DNA from: Tissierellia bacterium
Lineage (GTDB): Bacteria > Bacillota > Clostridia > Tissierellales > Sedimentibacteraceae
Length of the DNA: 34,977 nucleotides
Assembly (NCBI GenBank): GCA_012843025.1
Contig: DURT01000006.1
Location: forward strand, 1 to 34,977
Reading direction: 5' to 3'
The notes under the pieces are model-generated. The model made no database searches, had not been told where the DNA came from, and saw only the letters and a list, made by a program, of their open reading frames with translations. This document shows positions 11,770-18,202 of this stretch, piece by piece. Made by a program: the position numbers and the translations under genes. How positions within the stretch are numbered: the first letter of the stretch is position 1; the number at the start of each line of letters is the position of its first letter.

Positions 11770-11798
11770 TTGTTAATAGGAAGGGGATGTGCTATAAT
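11770..11798 (+). promoter_or_regulatory. Promoter of the Gate-domain gene pair
   Basis: TTGTTA (11770-11775), a 17-base spacer and TATAAT (11793-11798), preceded by TGC at 11790-11792 (extended -10). The predicted start near 11805 is just upstream of AAGGAGG at 11808-11814. This rules out the longer frame opening at 11787, which would lie inside the promoter. Confidence 0.7.
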
Positions 11799-11819
11799 TC
11801 ATTTGGCAAGGAGGATTGT

Positions 11820-12242
11820 ATGATAACTACAGATACTTTTAAAAGAGGATTTAAAAACGGCATTGTTACAATGATAGAACTATCCAAGATCTTAATACCT
11901 GTATATATTGCCGTTCAATTGCTTTCCATTTCAGGAATTATAAATATTATCGCCAAGTTTTTCCACCCGGCTATGTCTTTGTTTGGATTGCCTGGGGAAG
12001 CTTCCTTGGTAATTCTTTTGGGATATTTTTTAGGTACATATGCTGCATTAGGTGCTATGGCGGCCTTTGAGCTTTCTGCTGTCCAGGTAACGACAATAGC
12101 AATTATGATTTCCATAGCCCACAGCTTATTCACAGAGTCAGCAGTGGTCAGGAAATTAGGGCTAAGCACTACTGCAAGTATAGTTGCAAGGCTGTTTTTT
12201 TCAGTTCTGATGGGTTTCTTACATTTTAGAATATTCGGGTGA
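11820..12242 (+). CDS. Gate-domain (nucleoside recognition) membrane protein, SpmA-like half
   Basis: A 140-residue membrane protein with three to four hydrophobic segments and a Gate-type domain. Recognisable stretches are IVTMIELSKILIPVYIAVQL and AHSLFTESAVV, the latter matching the Gate consensus H-x3-E. The start is ATG 11820, five bases after AAGGAGG. Gate domains occur in spore maturation proteins SpmA/SpmB, in YjiH and in nucleoside transporters; SpmA itself is longer (about 195 residues). The next gene starts four bases after this stop and encodes a second Gate protein, so the two probably form a heteromer. Function is unknown; naming it spmA would overreach. No sporulation-sigma promoter was seen: the promoter is sigma-A-like. 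Confidence 0.82.
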   Translation: MITTDTFKRGFKNGIVTMIELSKILIPVYIAVQLLSISGIINIIAKFFHPAMSLFGLPGEASLVILLGYFLGTYAALGAMAAFELSAVQVTTIAIMISIAHSLFTESAVVRKLGLSTTASIVARLFFSVLMGFLHFRIFG

Positions 12243-12246
12243 TATT

Positions 12247-12702
12247 ATGAATGCTGTAATTGATTTACTTATAAATTTATTAAGTTTTTTATGGAATATT
12301 GCAAAGCTACTTATTCCAATAATGGTAATAATAGAAATATTTAAAGATACCAAGTTAATAGATAAAATAACTAGTATATTCAGGCCTGTTACTAATTTCT
12401 TTACTTTGAGCGAAAAGGCAGGAGTAGCTCTATTGTTTGGAATGTTTTTCGGCCTTACCATAGGAGCAGGAGCTATACTACAAAGTGTTAAAGATTACGA
12501 TGTGGACAAAAGAAGTGTTTTTTTGGTAATTATGTTCGTATCCCTCTGTCATGCCGTGTTCGAAGATTCATTTATTATGGCTGCCGTAGGGGCAAATATT
12601 GCACAATTGCTGTTAGCCCGCTTTGGTGCTGCCATCTTGTTAACCTTCCTATTGTCAAGGTTTATTAAGAAAACTGATGATTCTTTGAAAATTAACGAAT
12701 GA
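12247..12702 (+). CDS. Gate-domain (nucleoside recognition) membrane protein, SpmB-like half
   Basis: A 151-residue membrane protein, second of the pair. Hydrophobic helices lie at about 5-30, 62-80, 95-115 and 122-142. The Gate signature is visible in LWNIAKLLIPIMVIIEIF near the start and in SLCHAVFEDSFI, parallel to AHSLFTESAVV in its partner. It begins four bases after the upstream stop, with GGGTGAT as a weak ribosome site, consistent with coupling. The paired arrangement and similar size suggest duplication followed by divergence. Substrate or role is unknown; a spore-maturation-type or small-molecule export function is inference from the family only. Confidence 0.82.
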   Translation: MNAVIDLLINLLSFLWNIAKLLIPIMVIIEIFKDTKLIDKITSIFRPVTNFFTLSEKAGVALLFGMFFGLTIGAGAILQSVKDYDVDKRSVFLVIMFVSLCHAVFEDSFIMAAVGANIAQLLLARFGAAILLTFLLSRFIKKTDDSLKINE

Positions 12703-14021: not shown

Positions 14022-14033
14022 CCTTCCTCCTTC

Positions 14034-14060
14034 CCGACCACGGAACCGTCCCCTGGTCGG
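14034..14060 (-). promoter_or_regulatory. Hairpin abutting the hisS ribosome binding site
   Basis: CCGACCA (14034-14040) pairs with TGGTCGG (14054-14060); the 13-base loop contains the small palindrome CGGAACCG. The stem ends about two bases from the AAGGAGG of hisS (14026-14032). It could tune translation, or be a copy of a dispersed palindromic element; it lacks T-box features. Confidence 0.45.
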
Positions 14061-14083
14061 TCTGTTCTTGTTTATTTTAATTT

Positions 14084-14112
14084 ATGTTACCAAATTATTA
14101 TTAATATTTCAA
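14084..14112 (-). promoter_or_regulatory. Candidate hisS promoter
   Basis: On the minus strand TTGAAA (14112-14107), a 17-base spacer and TAACAT (14089-14084). The spacing is right but the -10 matches only four of six bases. Confidence 0.38.
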
Positions 14113-14130
14113 TGACTAAATATTATAATT

Positions 14131-14154
14131 CTAGCCACGGTAGTCCGTGGCTAG
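14131..14154 (-). terminator. Hairpin after the DUF1659-DUF2922 pair
   Basis: CTAGCCACGG (14131-14140) and CCGTGGCTAG (14145-14154) form a perfect 10-bp stem with a TAGT loop, six bases past the stop at 14160. Downstream sequence on the minus strand is AT-rich but lacks a clean T-run, so termination is likely but not certain. Confidence 0.65.
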
Positions 14155-14159
14155 TAAGT

Positions 14160-14372
14160 TTAGATTAAAACTTCTTCTGTTGTAGTTATTATTGCGGCAG
14201 ATTTTATTTCTGTCAAATCGCCCCTGCTGGTATTAAATATATTGGCTGCAATAATTGCTTCCATAACTCCTCTTACTTCTTGCTCCGACAGGTCTTCCTT
14301 AGGCTGGTCAATAGTCATGGAAGAAGTAGTGCCTTCAGCAGTGAGAAAAGACATTACTAATTTTCTGGTCAC
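14160..14372 (-). CDS. DUF2922 family small protein
   Basis: A 70-residue cytoplasmic-looking protein matching the DUF2922 pattern: N-terminal KLVMSF strand, a central EQEVRGVMEAIIAANIF helix and a C-terminal KSAAIITTTEEVLI strand. Members are widespread in Firmicutes and commonly sit beside a DUF1659 gene, as here (the partner ends 42 bases upstream). The function of both families is unknown. The ATG is preceded by GAAAGAGGTGATATA, giving a ribosome site. A hairpin follows the stop. It has no signal peptide or cysteine. Confidence 0.8.
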   Translation of the reverse strand: MTRKLVMSFLTAEGTTSSMTIDQPKEDLSEQEVRGVMEAIIAANIFNTSRGDLTEIKSAAIITTTEEVLI

Positions 14373-14414
14373 TATATCACCTCTTTCTTTTGATAATTAG
14401 TAATAAATATACTA

Positions 14415-14642
14415 TTAAACTTCATTGATCAGTTCATATTCGTCATATCTTACTATACCGGCTAATTCATAAGTTTGGAGTTCTGAAATAGCTACACCAA
14501 TATTGTAAAGATCTTCATTGTTTGCAGAAGCCTTTACATTGGAAAAGGTCTTGCTCTTAAGGATAGCCTTGTTGTTATCGTCCAGCCCTGCATTTAGAAG
14601 GATCTTGAACTTAGAGTCTAATTGATTAGTTATAACTGCCAT
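14415..14642 (-). CDS. DUF1659 family small protein
   Basis: A 75-residue protein with the DUF1659 layout: N-terminal LDSKFKILLNAGLD strand-rich part, then KSKTFSNVKASANNEDLYNIG, then a C-terminal helix leading to the LAGIVRYDEYELINE end. AGGAGGTGAG precedes the ATG at a standard distance. It is first in a two-gene unit with the DUF2922 gene. It is transcribed away from the methyltransferase gene at 14756, with 113 bases between the two starts. Function unknown. I see no catalytic or metal-binding motif, and suggest no role. Confidence 0.8.
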   Translation of the reverse strand: MAVITNQLDSKFKILLNAGLDDNNKAILKSKTFSNVKASANNEDLYNIGVAISELQTYELAGIVRYDEYELINEV

Positions 14643-14755
14643 AATCTCACCTCCTGTTGTGTTCTATATCTATATAGGAGTTTTTGGACGAATGTATTGC
14701 TTAAAATTTAAAATTATGTTAATATAAACATAAAGATAAAAAGTCAGAGGCATCT

Positions 14756-16570
14756 ATGTATAAGTCGCTGGTAAAAGAAATAAAAACCTTAATCGGTAAT
14801 ATACCTTGCTACGACTATATCAGTAAAGTCAGATATGTGATTTTTCTATTATGTCAAAACCTCTATTCACTAAAATTCAACAAATACATATCTATTAACA
14901 ATGTGCATATTTTTAAAGAATATAATCAATTCGACCTTCAAAATGATGAAATCCGGGAAAAAATCTCTATATTATCAAAGGAATATACTGAATTTTTACT
15001 TGCAGATTTTACCCCGGCTTACCTTTATGAAAACTTGCTAACCGCTAAGGAAAAGAAATCTTTAGGTCAAGTATATACTCCACAAAAAATAATAAAAAAA
15101 ATGATTAATGAGGTATTCCAAATAATAAATTTTCATGAGAATATAAGGATTTTAGACCCTGCATGCGGAGGGGGCTACTTCCTTACGGAGTTATATAATT
15201 ATATCAGTAATAACCACCCAGAAATCGAAAAGCGTCACATTGTGGAAAATATGCTCTATGGTACAGATGTAGATGACTTTTCCATATTTTTAAGCAAGGC
15301 AGGTTTGATTTTTCAAAGTGGCATACATGATTTAAAGTTTAATATTTACAAGATGGATTTTCTTACTTCTCCTCCCTTAGGAGAATTTCACCTAGTAATT
15401 GGTAACCCTCCCTACATTGGTCATAAAAATACCAGTAGAGAATACAAAAAAGTACTTTATGAAAACTACAAGGAAGTATACTATGACAAGGCTGATATTT
15501 CCTATTGCTTCTTTAAGAGGGGGAAGGAATTATTAAATTCCGAAGGTATTATTTCCTTTATAACTTCCCGTTATTTTATGGAAGCTCTTTACGGGGACCG
15601 ATTGAGGAAGTTTATAAAAGAAAATTTAAATATCCTATCATTAGTTGATTACAATGGAAAAAGCCCTTTCAAGCATGCCATGGTAAGCCCTGCCATAATA
15701 ACTTTATCTGTAAAATGGAACAATTGCTACTTTAAATACGTCAAAAAGAAAAGTGCAGGAGTGGAGGTTTACGAATATAGCCAGAAAAAACTTAAAGACT
15801 CCGGTTGGATAATACTGAAGGATGAGGATGAAAAGCTCTTTGAGCGCATTGACAGTATTTCGAACACTTATATTAAGGATATATGCACTATTAAACAGGG
15901 GATTATTACAGGTTATGATAAAGCTTTCATTGTAGATGAGGAAACTATCGAAAAATACAAAATAGAGAGTTTTCTTCTTAGAAAATGGATTAAAAACAGC
16001 AACATATCAAGGAATTCCATCAAATATAATAATTTGTACTTAATTTATTCGGATATTATAGAGGATGAGAGAGATTTTCCCAATGCAATTAAGTATTTAT
16101 CTCAATATAAGGCTAGGCTGAAAAGCAGAAGAGAGTGCCGGTCAGGAATTCGGGAGTGGTATAAGCTGCAATGGGGCAGAATAATATCTGACTTTGAAAA
16201 TCCTAAAATAATTTTTCCCTACAAATCAAAAAATAATAATTTCTACTACGATAAAAGCGGGTATTTTTGCAGCGCTGACATTTACCTGATGAATAATTTT
16301 TCAGAAAATATTACACTTGATTATTTAATTTCATATTTAAATTCTTCCATATTTGAATTTTATTTAAAATGTCAAAGCAAAAAAGTAGGAAAGGATTTAT
16401 ATGAATATTATCCAAATAAATTGAATAATTTGAAAATTTATATACCTCAGATAGACATCCAACAGAAATTTTCTGGATTAGGAAAATTTAGCATTGAAAT
16501 ATTGCTTGAAAAGATGTTTAATGTAAATGAGAAGGAGGTAAATATTATTAAGAATTATATAAGAGGGTGA
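14756..16570 (+). CDS. Orphan adenine-N6 DNA methyltransferase, CamA-like (Eco57I/TaqI type)
   Basis: A 604-residue DNA methyltransferase using S-adenosylmethionine to methylate adenine N6. In order: N-terminal helical extension (1-100), GQVYTPQKII (104-113, motif X region), SAM-binding DPACGGG (134-140, motif I), catalytic NPPY (217-220, motif IV), and a TaqI-C-type target-recognition domain (about 375-570). No PD-(D/E)XK nuclease motif is apparent and no nuclease gene is adjacent, so this is an orphan rather than a working restriction system. From memory, several blocks match C. difficile CamA (about 577 residues, CAAAAA-specific): NPPYIGHK with a following KADISYCFFK, QGIITGYDKAFI (381-392), RREC.SGIR.WY.LQWGR (458-475) and a YYPNK near 552. 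CamA lacks most of the N-terminal extension. AGAGG precedes the ATG. The SLH gene follows after nine bases. Target sequence is not proven. Confidence 0.9.
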   Translation: MYKSLVKEIKTLIGNIPCYDYISKVRYVIFLLCQNLYSLKFNKYISINNVHIFKEYNQFDLQNDEIREKISILSKEYTEFLLADFTPAYLYENLLTAKEKKSLGQVYTPQKIIKKMINEVFQIINFHENIRILDPACGGGYFLTELYNYISNNHPEIEKRHIVENMLYGTDVDDFSIFLSKAGLIFQSGIHDLKFNIYKMDFLTSPPLGEFHLVIGNPPYIGHKNTSREYKKVLYENYKEVYYDKADISYCFFKRGKELLNSEGIISFITSRYFMEALYGDRLRKFIKENLNILSLVDYNGKSPFKHAMVSPAIITLSVKWNNCYFKYVKKKSAGVEVYEYSQKKLKDSGWIILKDEDEKLFERIDSISNTYIKDICTIKQGIITGYDKAFIVDEETIEKYKIESFLLRKWIKNSNISRNSIKYNNLYLIYSDIIEDERDFPNAIKYLSQYKARLKSRRECRSGIREWYKLQWGRIISDFENPKIIFPYKSKNNNFYYDKSGYFCSADIYLMNNFSENITLDYLISYLNSSIFEFYLKCQSKKVGKDLYEYYPNKLNNLKIYIPQIDIQQKFSGLGKFSIEILLEKMFNVNEKEVNIIKNYIRG

Positions 16571-16579
16571 TGACGCAAA

Positions 16580-18202
16580 TTGAGGAAAATTAAAAAGCTA
16601 TCATTATTAGTTGCTATTATTATTGTGTTGTCCATTCAACCGGCTGCAGGAAGAACCGTATACTATGATACTTTCAATCACTGGGCGGAAAGTGACATTG
16701 ACTTTGCATCTAACGCTCTTAAGGTTTTCAGGGGTTACGGCGATTTCACATTCAGGCCAGAAAACAACATAACCAGAGCTGAATTTATAACTATATTGGC
16801 AAGAACCGCCTACAGTCAAAACCAAATGAGGGAAGTATATGTAAGCGATATGTCTTACCAGGATATGTCAAACAAACATTGGTCTTATACTTTTGTTATT
16901 TCCATGTATGAGCATCTTAAAACTAACAATTTTACTTTACAGGATATATTTCCCGGAAACAATTTTTATCCTGACAAGGCTATTACCCGGGAGGAAGCAG
17001 CAGCTTTAATAGGTGCTTTCTGCAAAAATGCAATTTATGACAATCCTCTCCCTTTTATCGATATCTCCACAAGTAACAAATTTTATAATGAAATTAATAG
17101 ACTTAATAATGCAGGAATCATTGTGGGATATGAGGACAATACTTTTCGAGGAAAATCCCCTATTACAAGAGCTGAATCAGCAGCTTTAATAAGGAGGGTT
17201 TATAACGATATAAAAACCAGCGACAGTAGTCAGTATTTAACTAAATTATTGTTTCTGCCCATACGTGGGGAAGATATTTATTCATATTTCGGCAATTATA
17301 ATTTTAATAATCTAAGTGCAAATGACAGAAAGTATATTAAGGCTAAGGATACCTTGGAATATGTTTCTTTCGGCGGTTATATATTCCCCGAAGATTCACA
17401 TCTCTACGACTTAAATGCTGTTAATACAATGGAAGATCTGCGGTCACAGGGATACTACAATGTAGCGGGAACCAATTATTACTTACTCTTGTTCGGAAGC
17501 CACTCCGATGAAGCAAAATCAAATTTTGCCAATGAGTTATTAACAGATGTTATAGGAAGAAATGACTTAAATGATGCAGAGATGATGCAAGTTTTCACCG
17601 CCGTAAGTAAGTATACAGTAAATGAGAACCTGTACATGGGAGCTTTAGAAAAATGGAACAGCATGACTAACAGCGACAATGCCAAAGCAAATATTATGTT
17701 TTTCAGATATGCTTACTATATTAGGAATAATAACAAGGATATGTTAAGAAGGCTTATATATGAGGACCTAAAAAAGGCCAACAACATACCTGAGCTGTTA
17801 AATCTTAACTTTAGTTTAAGTGCCGATCCCACAGGAATTGACTTTAGGAATTATAATTTTGGAAACTACAGTTTTTCATTGTACAAGGATACCACCCTGT
17901 ACAGATACTTACTAACTAGTACTCTGCCCTTCCGTCAAGCAAGGGTTGTGGAACTGTCAAGTATACTAATGGTGGAGAAAAGAAATAAACCTGCAGTAAG
18001 TATGACAAATTATGAAAATATATTCAGTCAATATTCCGTAAACAGACTTTATGTTCTTAATTTCATAGGAGAAAAGGAACGAGCCTTTGTTGAAGGAATG
18101 AACGATTATACAATAATCAAGACCTTTGACTTATACAGGAAGAATCCTAACTTTTATGATGATACTTACACAGGAATATTAAAAAAGTTAAAATTCACAT
18201 AA
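16580..18202 (+). CDS. Surface protein with three SLH domains
   Basis: A 540-residue exported protein. The signal peptide (MRKIKKLSLLVAIIIVLSIQ) ends near residue 24. Three S-layer homology domains follow: about 30-78 (ITRAEFITILAR), 95-148 (ITREEAAALIGAF) and 158-208 (ITRAESAALIRRVY). SLH domains bind pyruvylated secondary cell-wall polymers and anchor proteins to the surface. Residues 210-540 have no family I recognise; they are mostly polar with many Tyr and Asn. The start is TTG at 16580; the GAGGGTG overlapping the methyltransferase stop serves as ribosome site, and the nearby ATG at 16570 is out of frame. With only nine bases between genes, co-transcription with the methyltransferase is likely. 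A strong terminator follows. Confidence 0.88.
   Translation: MRKIKKLSLLVAIIIVLSIQPAAGRTVYYDTFNHWAESDIDFASNALKVFRGYGDFTFRPENNITRAEFITILARTAYSQNQMREVYVSDMSYQDMSNKHWSYTFVISMYEHLKTNNFTLQDIFPGNNFYPDKAITREEAAALIGAFCKNAIYDNPLPFIDISTSNKFYNEINRLNNAGIIVGYEDNTFRGKSPITRAESAALIRRVYNDIKTSDSSQYLTKLLFLPIRGEDIYSYFGNYNFNNLSANDRKYIKAKDTLEYVSFGGYIFPEDSHLYDLNAVNTMEDLRSQGYYNVAGTNYYLLLFGSHSDEAKSNFANELLTDVIGRNDLNDAEMMQVFTAVSKYTVNENLYMGALEKWNSMTNSDNAKANIMFFRYAYYIRNNNKDMLRRLIYEDLKKANNIPELLNLNFSLSADPTGIDFRNYNFGNYSFSLYKDTTLYRYLLTSTLPFRQARVVELSSILMVEKRNKPAVSMTNYENIFSQYSVNRLYVLNFIGEKERAFVEGMNDYTIIKTFDLYRKNPNFYDDTYTGILKKLKFT

Follow-up and report, generated by a model that had tools for sequence, protein, structure and literature searches.

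The gene at positions 14,756 to 16,570 of the window, by which we mean the whole stretch of 34,977 nucleotides analysed here, is confidently identified as a genuine orphan methyltransferase gene of the CamA family, and is thus a member of a known family. In the literature CamA counts as specific to Clostridioides difficile, or as rare beyond it (PMC8187626; PMC13395437, 2026). CamA-type enzymes are not confined to that species, and the family is broader than the literature says; this lack of C. difficile specificity outweighs the single-gene finding. The solid part of the case consists of membership in the family, catalytic and recognition residues that are intact, the absence of a nearby nuclease, vertical conservation and purifying selection. 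It is also highly probable that the enzyme makes a CAAAAA or CAAAAAR mark, with a role that is probably epigenetic rather than one in restriction.

The methyltransferase and its place in the CamA family

The open reading frame is complete, with an ATG start and AGAGG five bases upstream, and the gene is present as a single copy in the 2.2-Mb genome. Its product is divided as follows:

14756..16570, + strand: CamA-family gamma-class N6-adenine DNA methyltransferase without a nuclease, 604 aa (phmmer, Pfam, base-contact residues)
14756..15010, + strand: N-terminal extension, residues 1–85, not in CamA and without a Pfam domain
15068..15700, + strand: catalytic domain with YTP (107–109), motif I DPACGGG, motif IV NPPY (217–220) and post-NPPY HK (223–224), from the CamA alignment
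15896..16423, + strand: target-recognition domain, its base-contact residues aligned to CamA

Pfam assigns Eco57I (PF07669, E 6e-27), a TaqI-like C-terminal domain (PF12950, E 3.5e-12) and N6_Mtase to the protein. Together with the CamA alignment this bears out the SAM motif I DPACGGG, the catalytic NPPY and the TaqI-like domain proposed in the first-pass annotation, which was made from the sequence alone. The best phmmer match among all PDB sequences is C. difficile CamA (E 5e-83, 283 bits), and the next enzyme is M.BseCI (2.5e-26, 96 bits). Over CamA residues 10–559 the two proteins are identical at 200 of 504 aligned positions (40%), and the blocks that the first-pass annotation had named as matching CamA, namely YIGHK, KADISYCFF, QGIITGYDKAFI and RREC-SGIR-WY-LQWGR, all fall in register. 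M.BseCI (ATCGAT; PDB 7qw5) is likewise a gamma-class adenine methyltransferase with a TaqI-like recognition domain, but it is a far weaker match and lacks the QW-R / RREC block. With CamA itself (CD2758; PDB 7lni, 8cxz) the window protein shares the gamma-class fold, already covered by the CamA crystal structures, as well as domain order, NPPY and orphan status; it differs in 76 extra N-terminal residues and in the replacements Y30 to V, S62 to A, S514 to G and I517 to L.

The residues of CamA that touch the bases are listed from its DNA-bound structure (PMC8187626), and 13 of these 15 contacts are identical in the window protein (CamA H171, K172, Q346, I349, R425, Q438, W439, R441, Y455, K456, S472, A473 and Y521). 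Within the recognition domain the identical window residues are Q381, I384, R459, Q472, W473, R475, Y489, K490, S506, A507 and Y552, while in the catalytic domain N217, Y220, H223, K224, F252 and F305 correspond to CamA N165, Y168, H171, K172, F200 and F253, so that the catalytic N165, Y168 and F253 are retained. The two changed contacts, S514 (G545) and I517 (L548), are changed in the same way in the Acetobacterium woodii enzyme and touch only the rearranged fifth pair (A5:T6); the contacts to base pairs 1–4 are all identical. At the place of CamA Y30, which stacks on the flipped target adenine, the window protein has V106, and most family members likewise have V. The strength of the PDB match excludes chance resemblance, as do orthologues in 21 of the 24 other species of the genus and a dN/dS of about 0.11–0.13 at near-saturated dS, which indicates purifying selection.

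About 75 extra residues had been noted before the YTP motif, and the offset proves to be 76 (Y107 against CamA Y31). CamA-family members of the host families f8–f13, f17 and f18 have N-termini homologous to the extension (hhalign 98%, E 5e-14), while homology to the N-termini of f71, f58 or f5 members, which include the A. woodii-type and f58 proteins, was undetectable by hhalign. Since it is also absent from CamA, the extension is, on sequence comparison, a lineage feature common to related families of the order and not unique to the window protein. A degraded nuclease was rejected as its origin, since it has no Pfam domain and its only homologues are the N-termini of other family members.

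With CamA as query, 24 of the 92 genera in the window's order give matches at E 1e-60 or better, spread over 57 of 249 genomes. In a class sample of 391 genomes 58 match at 1e-20, about 47 of them resembling the CamA family in our count from the match table. Across an alignment of 60-odd family members, the residues that contact bases hardly vary. Among 20 other gamma-class proteins from the same genomes, one (L173) is a family member with 13 of the 15 contacts, four of a sister clade keep 8–9, and the remaining fifteen keep 0–4. The sister clade (L166, L167, L168 and L169) consists of methyltransferases of 686–794 aa of the EKQVRQWRQRSAGLY type, and its target site is probably related to that of CamA but not the same.

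Maximum likelihood recovers the CamA family as one clade (SH-aLRT 97), with the sequences clustered by host family (19 label changes, minimum 18). For the 46-row set in which L173 was counted as a paralogue, an AU test rejected a single clade, because L173 belongs inside the family clade. CamA lies in a sub-clade with families f75, f5 and f39 and the window protein in another, so the claim is one of family membership and not of strict one-to-one orthology. The proposal of a CamA-type enzyme is therefore upheld by alignment, DNA-interface residues, tree and neighbourhood, with orthology narrowed to family membership. The further suggestion, made on condition of orthology, that CamA-type epigenetic control would extend to another clostridial lineage needs qualifying: the family is widespread in Clostridia, and the window's lineage is no isolated case.

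Gene neighbourhood and sporulation

Three features flank the methyltransferase gene:

11787..12702, + strand: spmA- and spmB-like spore maturation genes, named from sequence, in the genus syntenic block
14415..14642, − strand: DUF1659 small protein (PF07872, E 1e-22), the divergent upstream neighbour, conserved in the genus
16580..18202, + strand: SLH-domain protein of 540 aa, the partner gene, 9 bp downstream of the methyltransferase

The block conserved across the genus comprises spmA-spmB, a HisS/HisZ-like gene, DUF2922-DUF1659, the methyltransferase, the SLH protein, pepT and others. The pairing of methyltransferase and SLH protein extends to nine families of the order (loci L112–L129 and L149), and these SLH proteins have part of their C-terminal domain in common. 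Only one well-assembled species of the genus (G003) has no methyltransferase gene, and the SLH gene is missing from it too, a single case. A PLP-enzyme-like gene of about 441 aa, which in relatives stands between the HisS/HisZ-like gene and DUF2922-DUF1659, is missing in the window (14022–14755). In several families a protein with an RNase H-like exonuclease domain (PF13482) is encoded upstream of the methyltransferase, mostly divergently (L115–L119, L126–L128, L149).

The window enzyme might be a sporulation regulator like C. difficile CamA, acting through methylation of the spoIIE promoter, although we consider this unlikely. The window genome does encode spore proteins, with SpoIVA fragments as well as the spmA/B-like genes, and all five loci of family f58, from five genera, have the CamA-family gene upstream of spoIIAA-spoIIAB-sigF (directly in L135, L146, L147 and L148, and one gene away in L145); spoIIAA, spoIIAB and sigF all score above NCBIfam cut-offs in the f58 locus tested. 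In one f5 locus the CamA-family gene follows spoIVA, and sporulation-gene neighbours other than those of f58 may be due to chance. Within the order the family also co-occurs with SpoIVA (present/absent 48/9 in carriers against 43/149 in other genomes, odds ratio 18.5, p 3e-17), but this association is confounded by descent and is absent across the class (33/14 against 248/96, odds ratio 0.91, p 0.86). A general link between family and sporulation, strong in the order and vanishing across the class, was accordingly not adopted.

The promoter evidence points the same way. The spoIIE upstream regions of 16 species of the window's genus hold 11 CAAAAA sites against 14.5 expected, with no enrichment, whereas a Clostridioides relative used as positive control has 4 against 0.86 expected, matching the published enrichment. 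CamA-type sporulation control thus finds no support in this indirect test of its one testable published target, since the genus does not conserve the motif cluster of the spoIIE promoter; the window gene also has neighbours other than those of the CamA gene. The sporulation role therefore looks lineage-specific, the more so as the enzyme also occurs in genomes that lack SpoIVA, among them that of A. woodii. The SpoIIE proteins of the window's genus (L188–L203) are short and divergent, with frames of about 514–560 aa against 770–818 in others, and score below the TIGR02865 cut-off.

Restriction-modification as an alternative origin

A solitary methyltransferase could also be the modification half of a Type II or Type IIG relic whose nuclease lies elsewhere or has been lost, its methylation being a leftover of defence and not a regulator. 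PADLOC labels the window protein MTase_II, with weaker REase_MTase_IIG matches, and nuclease-fused relatives act on a similar motif, the C. carboxidivorans enzyme CcaP7ORF7120P being a Type II restriction and modification fusion that methylates CRAAAAR (PMC10745947, where the similarity of motifs is remarked on). Such Type IIG fusions resemble the window enzyme in their methyltransferase domain as well as in their motif, but they carry the fused nuclease that it lacks: it is 604 aa in all, and its 85-residue N-terminus contains no nuclease domain. Proteins of IIG length (1059–1102 aa) from related genomes fall outside the supported clade that holds the window protein and keep at most 4 of the 15 contacts, contrary to the grouping with restriction-linked enzymes against which the earlier proposal had been set.

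The absence of a nuclease noted at first reading agrees with the present results, as Pfam detects no such domain in the protein, no nuclease gene was recognised among the open reading frames of the 35-kb window, and no nuclease family recurs among the neighbour clusters of the 60 neighbourhoods examined. The gene is moreover kept in place across the genus and next to the same partner gene across families, unlike mobile restriction-modification systems, and we regard a defence relic as very improbable. A mobile-element or phage origin was rejected, since searches of plasmid and phage collections at E 1e-30 gave no relative and the window contains no tRNA.

Given that the gene is solitary, has no nuclease nearby and is inherited vertically within a conserved chromosomal block, the most likely job of the enzyme would be the marking of the host genome in a way that affects gene expression, that is, epigenetic regulation and not restriction. 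A regulatory role of the window enzyme is accordingly no more than plausible.

The predicted mark and its distribution in Clostridia

The closest guide to the target is the A. woodii enzyme Awo_c14460, which gave CAAAAA(m6A)R when cloned in E. coli (PMC6700114). One genome in our set (G336) encodes an RnfC that agrees with PDB chain 9eri_C, from a paper on A. woodii Rnf, at every one of 432 residues, and this letter-for-letter identity identifies the genome as A. woodii. It has a single CamA-family gene, 41.6% along the chromosome (1.68 of 4.04 Mb), and from the expected place of tag c14460 we infer that this gene is Awo_c14460. The window protein is identical to the enzyme of this genome at all 15 base contacts, and shares with it NPPY and the lack of a fused nuclease. 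The two differ in the N-terminus, where the A. woodii enzyme has an unrelated extension of about 131 residues before YTP, and in their surroundings, the A. woodii gene adjoining a rarA-like gene in a genome without SpoIVA. On the strength of the shared contact residues the window enzyme is predicted to methylate CAAAAA or CAAAAAR, the exact motif and activity in vivo being part of the prediction.

By analogy with CamA, the TaqI-like recognition domain would use the residues with which CamA reads the C and the A-tract, and the enzyme would flip out the last adenine of the asymmetric CAAAAA site, whose likeliest full form is CAAAAAR. A methyl group would then be moved from SAM to N6 of the flipped adenine, with NPPY as the catalytic motif; base flipping and N6 methylation are both taken over from the CamA mechanism. 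A gamma-class relative resembling CamA in fold only, and reading a different sequence, is a quite unlikely alternative: identity to CamA is just 40% overall, G545 and L548 differ, and the sister clade with its 8–9 shared contacts presumably reads another site, but the contacts to base pairs 1–4 are unchanged and the complete contact string is that of an enzyme with CAAAAAR specificity.

Methylation of CAAAAAR has been reported in C. pasteurianum, where it was ascribed to a lone methyltransferase (PMC5027557) and 97% of sites are methylated (PMC4690370), and also in C. ljungdahlii (PMC6507227), C. acetobutylicum (PMC10865971) and E. limosum (PMC9503626). Our literature search found no paper uniting the CAAAAAR enzymes with CamA as one protein family. 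A CAAAAA-type mark is probably a widespread clostridial feature, and these scattered reports become one family. We would give somewhat less than even chances to the broader reading that CamA represents one local form of an ancient clostridial system, passed on by vertical descent, for the epigenetic marking of CAAAAA(R), in which the recognition surface has stayed nearly invariant while targets and partners have changed. If so, the changing partners would be the sigF operon in one family, the SLH envelope protein in the window's order and spoIIE in C. difficile. Specificity to C. difficile is part of the appeal of CamA as a drug target, and that argument loses force now that many other Clostridia prove to have the same residues for reading DNA; in exchange, comparative systems are gained for testing the ancestral role of the mark. 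Within the window (1–34977), counted on both strands, CAAAAA occurs 41 times where dinucleotide shuffles give about 61, and CAAAAAR 18 times where they give 35, counts in which codon constraints are uncontrolled.
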